Source: Chthonomonadia bacterium (GTDB lineage Bacteria > Armatimonadota > HRBIN16). From it: 45,123 nucleotides of DNA. This document shows positions 12,736 to 22,325 of the stretch, piece after piece. A program made the position numbers and the translations under genes. Numbering within the stretch: the first letter of the stretch is position 1; every line of letters starts with the position of its first letter. The stretch spans positions 1 through 45,123 of the forward strand of contig JABUFA010000031.1 of assembly GCA_013314755.1 (NCBI GenBank), in the 5' to 3' direction. A model generated the notes under the pieces. It ran no database searches. It saw only the letters and a list, made by a program, of their open reading frames with translations, and was not told the DNA's origin.

Positions 12736-15057
12736 ATGCGCATAAATCTTACCGGGGACTGGCTGTTGAGTTACCGCCCACAGCAGAGTCAATGGGTTGC
12801 GCCGGATGAAGCGGACTTCGCAAACATGCCTGCAGTAACCGCCGTCGTGCCGGGCAACGTGGAGCTAGACCTCATGCGTGCGGGTATCCTGCCCGACCTT
12901 GCCGTTGGAAACAATATCTACCGCCTGCGCGAGTTTGAAACGTACGAGTGGTGGTACAGGAAACGCTTCACCGCGCCAGCAGTCCCGACGGGACACCGCG
13001 CACAGATAGTGTTTGAGGGGCTGGACTGCCTGGCGCACGTGTGGCTTAACGGCGTGCTGGTAGGGGAGGGTACGAACGCCCTTGTGCCCCAAAGGTTCGA
13101 CGTCACGACGGCTTTGCGCGAAGGGGAAAACGAACTGGTGGTGCGGATTCGCTCGGCGGTGCTGGAAGGACGTGAGCGTGTGCCAGCCCCTCTGGAGAGC
13201 GCGCTACCGTGCGGGTTCGAGTCGCTGGCGGTGCGCAAGCCCCCCCACTGTTACGGCTGGGACATCATGCCACGCGCGGTCAGCGCAGGGATATGGCGCG
13301 TTGTGTATGTGCAGTTTCTGCCCCCCACACGCTGGCGTTCCGTCTACTGGGCGACAACGGCGATGGACCCGTCGCGCCGTTCTGCGGTGCTTTTCGTGGA
13401 CTGGGATTTCATTACTGATGTACATACGATTGACGACTGGCAGGTACGGTTGCGATTGACGCGGGATGGGAAGACCGCGCACGAGAGCCTGCACCCTGTC
13501 TTCCACACGCATGGGCGGGCACGCCTGCATGTGCAGGGAGTGGACCTGTGGTATCCGCGCGGCTATGGAGACCCTGTGCTGTACGACGCAACCGTTGAAC
13601 TGCTGGACGAACGGGGCAGAGTCCTGGACACGCACCATTGCCGAATCGGTATTCGCACGGTAGAGCTGAAGCGTACCGACATCACCACCCCGGAAGAGCC
13701 GGGAGAGTTCGTCTTCGTGGTGAACGGCGTGAAAGTGTTCGCGAAGGGAACGAACTGGGTGCCGCTGGACGCCTTCCACAGCCGTGACCTTCAACATCTT
13801 CATCGTGCAATAGAAATGCTGATAGACCTGAACTGCAACATGGTGCGATGCTGGGGCGGAAATGTCTATGAATCGGAAGATTTCTTTAACTTATGCGATC
13901 AACATGGTATCATGGTCTGGCAGGATTTTGCGCTTGCCTGTGCCATCTATCCCGGCGACATCATTCCTGCTATTCGCACCGAGGCAGAAGAGGTGGTACA
14001 TCGCCTGCGCAATCATCCCAGCCTGGTGCTGTGGTGTGGCAACAACGAGATCGACCACACGTACCTCTGGTCGGGGCAGGGGGTTGACCCCAATACGGAC
14101 CGAATCAGCCGCGAAGTGCTGGCAGAGGTAGTACGGCGGCTGGACCCGTTCCGCCCGTATTTGCCGAGCTCGCCCTTCGTCAGCGAGGAGGTCATGCGAC
14201 GCGGCGGCGACCCCAACCTCTCGCCCGAACAGCACCTGTGGGGACCGCGAGATGACTTCAAGGGACCGTTCTACACGCGGTCGTTAGCGCACTTCGTCAG
14301 CGAAATCGGCTATCACGGCTGTCCTGACAGGCGCACGCTGGAGCAGTTCCTCGAGCCGGATTACCTCTGGCACTGGCAGGATAACGAGCAGTGGCTGACT
14401 CATGCCACTCGCCCCCTGCCTCGGATGACCGATTTCAACTACCGCATCCCGTTGATGGCGAGCCAGATAGCGGTGTTATTCGACACCATCCCAGACAATC
14501 TGGACGATTTCATTCTCGCCTCGCAAATCAGCCAGGCGGAGGCGCTGAAGTTTTTCATCGAGCGATGGCGCCAACGCAAGTGGCGCACAACAGGCATCTT
14601 ATGGTGGAACCTGCGTGACGGCTGGCCCATCATTTCAGATGCTATCGTGGACTACTACTTCCGTAAGAAACTCGCCTATGAGTATGTCAAGCGGGTGCAA
14701 ACCGATGTGTGCGCCATGCTGAGCGAGCCAGAGGGTGATAGTCATACGCTGATTGTAGTGAATGACACGCTACTTCCCGCAGATGGGGAGATAGAGGTTA
14801 TCGACATCGATAGCGGAAACCAGCTGATAACCGCGGCATACCATGTGGAGCCAAACGACAGGGCGGTAATCGGTTCCGTTGCGAAGGTTCGACGTCCTGC
14901 CATGTGGCTGATTCGCTGGCGCGATGAAACGGGACGCACCTTTCTGAATCACTATCTGGTTGGTGAGCGACCGTTCAATCTGGAGCAGTATCGCCAATGG
15001 TTAAAACACCTGCAGATACCGGCGGACATCGGTTCTGTGGCAAAAATAGATACCTAA
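12736..15057 (+). CDS. GH2 glycosidase, beta-mannosidase-like
   Basis: This 773-residue protein has GH2 domains in order: sugar-binding (LTGDWLLSYRP, WLNGVLVGEGTN), Ig-like, and catalytic barrel beginning near VNGVKVFAKGTNWVPLDAF. The acid/base is probably Glu in LWCGNNEID (about E438) and the nucleophile Glu in HFVSEIGYHG (about E523). A C-terminal beta region follows. No signal peptide is present, so it is predicted to act in the cytoplasm on sugars released by the exported GH2 encoded just upstream. The ATG is one base after that gene's stop, with GGAGGT overlapping the stop. Substrate could be beta-mannosides or related pyranosides. The stop overlaps the candidate CsoR operator. Confidence 0.87.
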   Translation: MRINLTGDWLLSYRPQQSQWVAPDEADFANMPAVTAVVPGNVELDLMRAGILPDLAVGNNIYRLREFETYEWWYRKRFTAPAVPTGHRAQIVFEGLDCLAHVWLNGVLVGEGTNALVPQRFDVTTALREGENELVVRIRSAVLEGRERVPAPLESALPCGFESLAVRKPPHCYGWDIMPRAVSAGIWRVVYVQFLPPTRWRSVYWATTAMDPSRRSAVLFVDWDFITDVHTIDDWQVRLRLTRDGKTAHESLHPVFHTHGRARLHVQGVDLWYPRGYGDPVLYDATVELLDERGRVLDTHHCRIGIRTVELKRTDITTPEEPGEFVFVVNGVKVFAKGTNWVPLDAFHSRDLQHLHRAIEMLIDLNCNMVRCWGGNVYESEDFFNLCDQHGIMVWQDFALACAIYPGDIIPAIRTEAEEVVHRLRNHPSLVLWCGNNEIDHTYLWSGQGVDPNTDRISREVLAEVVRRLDPFRPYLPSSPFVSEEVMRRGGDPNLSPEQHLWGPRDDFKGPFYTRSLAHFVSEIGYHGCPDRRTLEQFLEPDYLWHWQDNEQWLTHATRPLPRMTDFNYRIPLMASQIAVLFDTIPDNLDDFILASQISQAEALKFFIERWRQRKWRTTGILWWNLRDGWPIISDAIVDYYFRKKLAYEYVKRVQTDVCAMLSEPEGDSHTLIVVNDTLLPADGEIEVIDIDSGNQLITAAYHVEPNDRAVIGSVAKVRRPAMWLIRWRDETGRTFLNHYLVGERPFNLEQYRQWLKHLQIPADIGSVAKIDT

Positions 15058-15073
15058 TACTGGTAGGGGGTAT
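15057..15073 (+). promoter_or_regulatory. Candidate CsoR-type operator
   Basis: ATACTGGTAGGGGGTAT is a 17-base imperfect palindrome with ATAC and GTAT ends around a G-tract. It has the shape of operators described for CsoR/RcnR-family repressors. It lies 11 bases before the ATG of a CsoR-family gene, so autoregulation is plausible. It overlaps the stop of the GH2 gene. Confidence 0.5.
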
Positions 15074-15084
15074 AAGCTTTTAAG

Positions 15085-15348
15085 ATGACGCAACGACAAA
15101 GCGACAGTCTGCCCTCAGAACTCATTGACAGGTTGCGCCGCATCGAAGGGCAGGTGCGGGGACTTCAGAAAATGATGAAGCAGGGGCGTGCGCCTTCAGA
15201 GGTTATCTATCAGATGGCGGCGGTTAAATCCGCTCTGGAGCAGGCAGCATTGCAATACCTCTGGTGGGAGGCACAGCAACGAGGCACTACTGAGGAGGCT
15301 GCCCAGGAGGTACGCACCACCCTGCAGCTCATCGCCAAAATCCTGTGA
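15085..15348 (+). CDS. CsoR/FrmR-family regulator without metal or thiol ligands
   Basis: This 87-residue all-helical protein has the family core LIDRLRRIEGQVRGLQKMM and QMAAVKSALEQAA. CsoR/RcnR/FrmR proteins are tetrameric DNA-binding repressors that release DNA on binding Cu, Ni/Co, formaldehyde or sulfur species through a conserved Cys and His/Cys set. Here the positions equivalent to C36, H61 and C65 of copper sensors are Ala36, Trp61 and Gln65, and the whole protein has no Cys and no His. The helical scaffold and the basic DNA-facing residues are kept. A candidate operator lies just upstream. It follows two GH2 genes and no metal transporter is near, so the inducer is unknown. Confidence 0.85.
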   Translation: MTQRQSDSLPSELIDRLRRIEGQVRGLQKMMKQGRAPSEVIYQMAAVKSALEQAALQYLWWEAQQRGTTEEAAQEVRTTLQLIAKIL

Positions 15349-15478
15349 TTCGGCGGATCTCGGTAACGGTGCGATGTATCTAATATCTCGCAGAGGCTTG
15401 CGCGGGCGAACGCAGGGGTTGTTGAGATTCTTCAGAACGACAAAGGGGCAAGGTTATTTGGTTCACCTGTCCATCTCC
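15349..15478. other. Intergenic region between convergent genes
   Basis: About 130 bases separate the CsoR-like gene from the end of the permease operon. I see no convincing hairpin with a T-run, no tRNA and no open frame with a ribosome site. Confidence 0.5.
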
Positions 15479-20184: not shown

Positions 20185-22325
20185 TCTTTTGGGACCTCCA
20201 TTCCCAGGTGATACATGGCAAACGCCAGCACGTCTGCCTCTTCCTCGATAAGCAGGGAGGTCGGCTTGCCTGCGCCATGTCCGGCGCGGGTCTGGATGCG
20301 TATCAGCACGGGCGCCTCGCCAGCCTGCACTTCCTGCAATCGCGCGGCGAATTTGAACGAGTGCGCGGGCATCACGCGGTCATCGTGGTCGCCGGTGGTA
20401 ACAAGCGTGGCGGGGTATCGCACGCCCGGCTTCAGGTTGTGATAGGGTGAATAGGCGTAAAGCACCCGGAACATCTGCGGGTCATCGCTGGTGCCGTAAT
20501 CTTCCTTCCACGCCGAGCCGATGGTAAACTGGTGATAGCGAAGCATGTCCATCACTCCGACCGCGGGCAGAGCCACTCGGAACAGCTCGGGGCGCTGGCA
20601 CATCACCGCGCCGACCAGCAGTCCCCCGTTAGAGCCGCCCCGTATCGCCAGCTTTTGCGGGGAGGTGTAGCGGTGGTCTATCAGGTACTCCGCCGCGGCG
20701 ATGAAGTCATCAAACACGTTCTGCTTGCGCTCTTTGGTTCCCGCCTGATGCCACTCCTCGCCGAACTCTCCGCCGCCGCGCAGGTTGGGTACTGCCAGCA
20801 CGCCGCCGTTTTCCATCCACACGAAGTAGCTCACCGAGAAGAAGGGGGTCAGCGAGATATTGAATCCGCCGTAGCCATAGAGCAGGGTAGGGTTTTGCCC
20901 GTCGAGCTTCAGCCCCTTGCGGTGAGTGATGAACATGGGCACGCGCGTGCCGTCCTTGCTTCGGAACCACACCTGTTTCGTCTCGTATTGCGAGGGGTCC
21001 AGCCCCTCAATCTGCGGAGCGTGGAAAACGGTGCTTTCGCCCGTGCGTACCTCATACCGGTAGATGGTATAGGGGTGCACGAACGAGGTGAATCCGTAGA
21101 AAAACTCGTCCTGACTGCGCCTGCCCACAAAGCCGCTGCACGTGCCCAGCGTTGGGAGAGGTATCTCCCGGACAAACTCGCCCTTCAGGGTGTAGATGCT
21201 CACGCGGCTGGTAGCGTTATGCAGGGTAACAACCGCCATCTGTTTGCCCATCAGTGTTACCGCCTGCAAGGTGTCTTCGCCTTCTGGCAGGATGGTCTTC
21301 CAGTGTTCTTTGTCGGGGTGGCGCAGGTCAATGGCGATGACCCTGCCGCGTGGGGCATCCAGGTCGGTGCGAAAATAGAACAACGTGCCGTCGTTGCCGA
21401 GGAACTGATAGGAAGCCTCGAAGCGGTCAATCAGGGGTTGAATCGGCGACTTCACCTCGGGCTGACTGGGACGTTGCAGGTCAATCACATAGACGAGGTT
21501 CTTCGGTCCCGCCTCGGTCACTCCGATAACGGCATAGCGCCCATCCTCGCTCACGGTGATGGAGTATCGCCATTCGGGGTGGTTCGGGTCTTCCAGTATC
21601 AGGATATCTTCGTTTTGCGAGGTTCCCAAGCGGTGATAATACACCTTCTGGTTGAGGTTGGGATGCCACATTGGGTTGGCATCTTTGGGCGGTTCGGGGT
21701 ATCGGCAATAGAAGAAGCCTTTACCGTCTTTAGTCCATGCGATGCTGGAGAACTTCACCCAGCGCAGGTCGTCGGGCAGGTCTTCGCCTGTTTCCACCGA
21801 ACGCACTCGGATTTCCTGCCAGTCGGAGCCAGCCTGAGATAGACCGTAGGCGAGCCACCTGCCGTTGTCGGAGACCGCTACGTTGGAAACGGACACTGTG
21901 CCATCGGGCGAGAGCAGGTTGGGGTCCAGCAAGACGCGCGGTTTGCCCGTCAGGGTAGGTTGCCAGTAAAGCACCGCCTGATTCTGCAAGCCGTCGTTTT
22001 TGAAGTAGAAATAGCGTCTGCCCCGCTTGAAGGGGATACCGTAGCGCGGGTAATTCCAGCGGCGGGTCAGGATGCGTTTCAGCGGCTCGCGGTGGGGCAG
22101 GGCGTGCAGATAGGGCAGGGTCAGTGCGTTTTGTGCCTCGATCCATGCCTTCGTTTCCGCCGACTCGGTATCCTCCAGCCAGCGATAGGGGTCAGGCACC
22201 GGAGTGCCATGGTAGTTATCCACATGGTCACTCTTTCGAGTGGAGGGGTACTTCAGAGATTGAGCTTCAACGCTTGCTACCGCCAGCAACACGACCAGTA
22301 TCAACGCTATCCACTCTGTGTACAT
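20181..22325 (-). CDS. Secreted prolyl oligopeptidase (S9A)
   Basis: This 714-residue protein has a signal peptide (about residues 5-21, ending VEAQ), a seven-blade propeller region and a C-terminal alpha/beta-hydrolase domain. The catalytic Ser is in RGGSNGG (S565), the Asp in GDHDDRV (about 648-649) and the His in RAGHGAGKP (H683). The N-terminal DPYRWLED is typical of the family. It cleaves short peptides after proline. It is the first gene of a six-gene minus-strand operon that also encodes dipeptide-type permeases, which fits extracellular peptide digestion followed by uptake. Confidence 0.93.
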   Translation of the reverse strand: MYTEWIALILVVLLAVASVEAQSLKYPSTRKSDHVDNYHGTPVPDPYRWLEDTESAETKAWIEAQNALTLPYLHALPHREPLKRILTRRWNYPRYGIPFKRGRRYFYFKNDGLQNQAVLYWQPTLTGKPRVLLDPNLLSPDGTVSVSNVAVSDNGRWLAYGLSQAGSDWQEIRVRSVETGEDLPDDLRWVKFSSIAWTKDGKGFFYCRYPEPPKDANPMWHPNLNQKVYYHRLGTSQNEDILILEDPNHPEWRYSITVSEDGRYAVIGVTEAGPKNLVYVIDLQRPSQPEVKSPIQPLIDRFEASYQFLGNDGTLFYFRTDLDAPRGRVIAIDLRHPDKEHWKTILPEGEDTLQAVTLMGKQMAVVTLHNATSRVSIYTLKGEFVREIPLPTLGTCSGFVGRRSQDEFFYGFTSFVHPYTIYRYEVRTGESTVFHAPQIEGLDPSQYETKQVWFRSKDGTRVPMFITHRKGLKLDGQNPTLLYGYGGFNISLTPFFSVSYFVWMENGGVLAVPNLRGGGEFGEEWHQAGTKERKQNVFDDFIAAAEYLIDHRYTSPQKLAIRGGSNGGLLVGAVMCQRPELFRVALPAVGVMDMLRYHQFTIGSAWKEDYGTSDDPQMFRVLYAYSPYHNLKPGVRYPATLVTTGDHDDRVMPAHSFKFAARLQEVQAGEAPVLIRIQTRAGHGAGKPTSLLIEEEADVLAFAMYHLGMEVPKE

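Follow-up and report, generated by a model that had tools for sequence, protein, structure and literature searches.

A CsoR-family regulator in an Armatimonadota genus that has lost the canonical sensing residues and retains a conserved predicted operator

The stretch of DNA analysed here (the whole 45,123 nucleotides of contig JABUFA010000031.1, referred to below as the window) carries a gene at 15085–15348 on the forward strand that encodes an 87-residue regulator of the CsoR/DUF156 family. In this protein and in its orthologues across one genus of Armatimonadota, the Cys/His/Cys set of the sensing site is lost, while the residues that contact DNA and a predicted operator next to the start codon are kept. 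Members of the CsoR/RcnR family form tetramers that leave DNA upon effector binding, and the best-characterised of these regulators sense their effectors via a Cys-centred site. Our preferred reading, which the evidence favours slightly, is that the protein is a CsoR-fold autorepressor that would bind DNA as CsoR does but answer to a non-canonical signal, its sensing site having been replaced.

Family, fold and sensing residues

The open reading frame is intact and matches the Pfam profile PF02583 (DUF156) with 62.4 bits, against a cut-off of 22.8. None of the NCBIfam subfamily models scored above its own cut-off for this protein. By sequence, the nearest solved chains are those of CsoR and InrS, and the protein is the only CsoR-family member in the window genome. 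The AF2 model of the protomer has a mean pLDDT of 86 with confident helices, and consists of three helices (residues 11–32, 37–65 and 70–86), which is the all-helical arrangement of the solved CsoR/RcnR members. A fold comparison against the PDB ranks CsoR, InrS, FrmR and CstR highest; the top entries (4m1p, 5fmn, 5lbm and 7mq1) have a probability of 1.0, yet their E values are modest, at around 2e-3 to 1e-2.

Translation of the reading frame gives no Cys and no His, as the sequence-only reading of this DNA had stated. That reading had also placed Ala36, Trp61 and Gln65 at the ligand positions, which is off by one because equal numbering was used rather than an alignment. Alignment to M. tuberculosis CsoR pairs Pro37 with Cys36 and Glu62 with His61, and the family profile puts Arg66 at the position of the second Cys. 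The copper site of CsoR (C36, H61 and C65 in M. tuberculosis) is consequently occupied by Pro37, Glu62 and Arg66. The pair of reactive cysteines that characterises CstR (positions X and Z) is likewise missing from this Cys-less protein, and so is the set found in FrmR, RcnR and InrS (Pro2/His3 together with Cys35 and His60), the N-terminus being variable and the other positions holding neither Cys nor His. The absence of the Cys/His/Cys set rules out a canonical metal or thiol signal, which agrees with the earlier proposal that the signal must be a different one.

The comparison with known regulators can be drawn in the same terms. The window protein resembles CsoR from S. lividans, G. thermodenitrificans and M. 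tuberculosis in its fold, Pfam family, RLXR motif, contact Gln and TAC-N9-GTA operator core with a G-tract, but it has Pro/Glu/Arg for the copper ligands and no copper genes adjoin it. FrmR, RcnR and InrS share its fold and DNA-binding surface (with a Foldseek probability of 1.0 for FrmR and InrS), but not their own conserved ligand residues. The regulators of reactive sulfur and sulfur oxidation, CstR and TTHA1953, are similar in the type of their neighbours (OsmC, DUF302 and thiol chemistry); the window protein differs in having no Cys, and hence no persulfide chemistry on the protein.

Loss of the ligand residues across the genus

Of the 10 genomes in the genus, 8 yielded an orthologue; the G002 copy is truncated by the end of its contig, and only its readable part was judged. 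Outside the genus no orthologue was found in the 291 phylum genomes compared: the orthologues score 151–174 bits, the next protein 62 bits. A scan of 84,980 species genomes gave one close relative, apparently that of G006, and the next matches align over only part of the length, with approximately 51% identity. None of the eight orthologues has the Cys/His/Cys set, and all eight have Pro37; in a set of 194 other family members, by comparison, Cys occupies the first ligand position in roughly 95% and the third likewise in roughly 95%. The complete lack of Cys and His that had been noted for this protein holds for the window copy and for the readable part of the G002 copy, but it does not extend to the clade, in which other copies carry His57 (5/8), His66 (G009) or Cys49 (G008).

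Pairs of orthologues have dN values of 0.09–0.25 with dS mostly above 1, which indicates that the gene is under purifying selection. Residues 41–48 and 50–56 are identical in all orthologues, and nine positions (P10, D15, P37, I41, Y42, M44, Y58, W61 and Q64) are invariant within the clade and rare outside it. On these comparisons the ligand loss in the genus is not random. The sequence-only reading had named random residue loss and an unconserved upstream palindrome as grounds for abandoning it; what we found instead is Pro37 throughout the orthologues and an upstream site that is kept in 7/7.

These results bear on the possibility that the protein is a constitutive autorepressor, which senses nothing, is locked in the apo, DNA-binding state, and by its concentration determines how strongly its own operon is expressed. 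Such a protein could well have lost all its ligand residues and kept those that bind DNA, and salt bridges among Glu62, Arg66 and Lys48 could steady the old site. However, the aromatic and polar residues that have become invariant on α2 go beyond what plain DNA binding needs in the relatives, and the stretch 41–56 is near-invariant despite saturated synonymous divergence. We regard a constitutive autorepressor as possible but unlikely.

No paper on a Cys-less member of the CsoR family was found among the papers of an open-access library. A second Cys-less lineage is nonetheless present within the same phylum, in genus g41 (G054 and G261–G264), where the ligand positions read Gly-His-Tyr, Thr-Arg-Leu or Ala-Ala-Ala. 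As in the window clade, the first Cys is lost (to Gly, Thr or Ala) and so is the second (to Tyr, Leu or Ala); unlike it, some g41 proteins keep the His, and the neighbours are a TPR protein and a dTDP-sugar reductase-like protein. The g41 proteins form a separate, well-supported clade in the tree. A single origin of the two clades is not rejected (AU p = 0.27), and we therefore dropped an independent origin of the g41 lineage as an established point; the backbone of the family tree, including the nearest neighbour of the window clade, is weakly resolved on approximately 95 columns. The sensing site may have been lost more than once in the phylum.

We note some further features of these other lineages. 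At five g41 loci (L025, L180, L192, L203 and L219) the CsoR-family gene is divergent to a TPR-like gene, several g41 loci have an adjoining dTDP-sugar reductase-like gene, and an upstream sequence, TTATATGGTATCATCTT, is common to 4/5 loci. Separate Cys-containing, CstR-like CsoR paralogues occur in G001, G004 and G008 (L116:7029–7325, L118:7760–8053 and L120), and the one in G001 is found with genes for rhodanese, TusA and a PF03601 (Cons_hypoth698) membrane protein.

DNA-contact residues and the predicted operator

The RLXR arginines on α1 are present in R16-L17-R18-R19 (RLRR, 16–19) and the DNA-contact Gln on α2 is present as Q43, and these residues are conserved in all orthologues. R19 and Q43 are the counterparts of R57 and Q81 in S. 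lividans CsoR, in which the substitutions R57A and Q81A abolished detectable operator binding (PMC3902906).

Upstream of the gene, a TAC-N9-GTA core with a G-tract on its right-hand side lies at 15058–15072 (TAC-TGGTAGGGG-GTA). The common core of CsoR operators is TAC-X9-GTA (PMC3902906), and an inverted TAC/GTA repeat around a G-tract, as in operators of the family, is found as a predicted site in all 7 orthologues that have readable upstream DNA. In each of these the distance to the start codon is 2–11 bases, taken from the last base of a 17-mer described below; the chance of a TAC-N9-GTA within 45 bases is only about 0.6% per genome by composition. A 17-base palindrome had been claimed 11 bases before the ATG. 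It is there, as ATACTGGTAGGGGGTAT at 15057–15073 and with the right spacing, but its arms are only 4 bp long (ATAC/GTAT), and it is better described as belonging to a conserved symmetric element of 22 bp, whose right part it forms. This element, the predicted operator, is a double dyad TAC-N4-TAC-N2-GTA-N4-GTA (TACCTAATACTGGTAGGGGGTA) at 15051–15072; like the core, it is assigned to neither strand. It is exact in 5/7 orthologous upstream regions and retains three of the four triplets in the remaining 2/7. Its left end falls within the final codons of GH2, the gene upstream, and it overlaps the GH2 stop codon. The operator of TTHA1953 from Thermus, TAC-N2-TAC-N4-GTA-N2-GTA (PMC10318464), similarly has two TAC and two GTA triplets, with a spacing of N2/N4/N2 as against N4/N2/N4 in the window.

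The operator columns are near-invariant across the orthologues, and the flanks are not. Part of this conservation can be put down to an overlap between the G-rich half and the Shine-Dalgarno sequence: in the congeners the right arm of the dyad holds AGGAGG. The window copy has AGGGGG, approximately 15 nt from the ATG, so that the Shine-Dalgarno sequence is weakened while all four triplets are retained. Given the RLXR arginines, the invariant Gln and the conserved predicted operator, it is very likely that DNA binding is kept, and here we concur with what had been proposed from the sequence alone.

Matches to sigma-70-type promoters end just 5′ of the predicted operator in G005 and G006, and G003 has TATAAT only, seen by eye. 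No promoter match was found upstream of the gene in the window, and its transcription may therefore depend on that of GH2. Elsewhere in the ten genomes, occurrences of the 17-mer or of the 22-bp element were considered as signs of a regulon beyond the gene itself and were rejected: they are about as numerous as chance and conserved coding stretches would give, and mostly look intragenic, although not each was checked. Within the window there is an exact second copy of TAC-N4-TAC-N2-GTA-N4-GTA at 21048–21069, inside a prolyl-oligopeptidase-like gene, which is probably due to chance.

Gene neighbourhood

A gene for a GH2-family glycosidase is located directly upstream on the forward strand (12736–15057, leaving a 27-bp gap), and is a neighbour in 6/7 readable congeners. 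The presence of GH2 had led to the guess of a sugar signal. This guess is not borne out: in G006 there is no GH2 upstream of the csoR-like gene, the gene has its own promoter-like sequence in G005 and G006, and the usual downstream partners encode OsmC and DUF302. No positive evidence for a sugar ligand was found.

The order csoR-osmC-DUF302 occurs in 6 of 8 genomes (G001, G002, G003, G005, G006 and G009). The OsmC partner (PF02566) has two Cys, at 52 and 118, and both it and the DUF302 partner (PF03625) keep cysteines. In the window genome (G000), osmC and DUF302 are together on another contig, C73, and in G008 they are on C66, away from the csoR-like gene. The broken ends of the two loci have no common sequence, and the separations therefore look independent. 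In these two genomes the gene is preceded by its own predicted operator and has no osmC-DUF302 beside it, as would suit the constitutive autorepressor described above. The joint absence of csoR, osmC and DUF302 from G004 was withdrawn as evidence for a functional unit: the GH2 orthologue of G004 runs off the end of its contig, and the locus may therefore lie in an assembly gap.

The sequence GAATC-N18-ATCTAA, with a spacing of exactly 18, is found ahead of osmC in the other 7 genomes (in the csoR-osmC gaps of L111, L113, L114, L115, L117 and L119, and upstream of osmC in L278). It is promoter-like, and looks like a promoter for an alternative sigma factor, perhaps of ECF type. After the separations the element is found beside osmC in G008; in the window it remained beside csoR, and its remnant there, GGATC-N18-ATCTAA, lies at 15346–15399 on the forward strand with osmC no longer downstream. 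The extent of the regulon is thus uncertain, because of the separation in G000 and G008 and because osmC-DUF302 seemingly has its own promoter-like element. We also considered whether the relocated osmC of the window genome is preceded by an operator, and discarded this, since there is no TAC-N9-GTA there; what is found, 149 bp before osmC (L143:5245), is the perfect palindrome GGTATATACC, with half-sites reversed relative to the csoR operator.

The window gene might alternatively be a declining copy, drifting after a rearrangement split it from osmC-DUF302. Besides the separation itself, this would account for the change from AGGAGG to AGGGGG with its spacing of approximately 15 nt, the variant GGATC in the downstream element, and a dN that is the highest of the set (0.16–0.25). 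We consider it very improbable, as the open reading frame is intact and has kept all contact residues together with all four operator triplets.

Genes for Cys-type members of the family are found next to the same partners elsewhere: one adjoins thioredoxin and OsmC in G235 (L206), and another adjoins DUF302 in Tomitella (L097). The G235 locus, from another Armatimonadota family, has the Cys-type CsoR gene, then a thioredoxin-like gene and then an OsmC gene (L206:984–2981). Because OsmC and DUF302 are encoded downstream in the genus and, elsewhere, beside Cys-type regulators, the gene context is more indicative of thiol or reactive-species chemistry than of sugar, though the protein cannot itself do thiol chemistry. 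A way around this would be for the Cys-less regulator to receive a redox or reactive-sulfur signal through OsmC, DUF302 or a small thiol molecule, as the shared operon with OsmC (Cys 52 and 118) and DUF302 and the neighbours of the Cys-type members might suggest. The gene order is, however, uncoupled in G000 and G008, and we know of no precedent for such signalling in the CsoR family; we regard this relay as rather improbable.

Proposed mechanism and significance

According to the autorepressor reading that we prefer, the repressor would bind the TAC/GTA double dyad where its own message begins. The occupied operator would cover the starts of both transcription and translation and so shut off the repressor's own gene; in most congeners, osmC and DUF302 would also be shut off by the same repressor. 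With the metal, persulfide or formaldehyde site replaced, release from the operator, if it is regulated, would be by a signal that needs no Cys/His site, and most likely via the rebuilt surface of α2 (Pro37, Tyr42, Tyr58, Trp61 and Gln64). We only tentatively suggest that these residues form a site for a ligand that is neither thiol nor metal, controlling an OsmC-DUF302 stress operon; the new clade-invariant residues could serve packing only.

When proteins of this kind are annotated automatically as metal-sensitive repressors, the label can mislead about the signal, and this family name should not be taken as a function. A whole genus has naturally lost the sensing residues while keeping the operator and the residues that bind DNA, which offers a test of whether allostery in the CsoR fold needs a Cys-centred site. 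If the proposed ligand site is real, it would be the CsoR family's first organic or otherwise new effector to be read without Cys chemistry.
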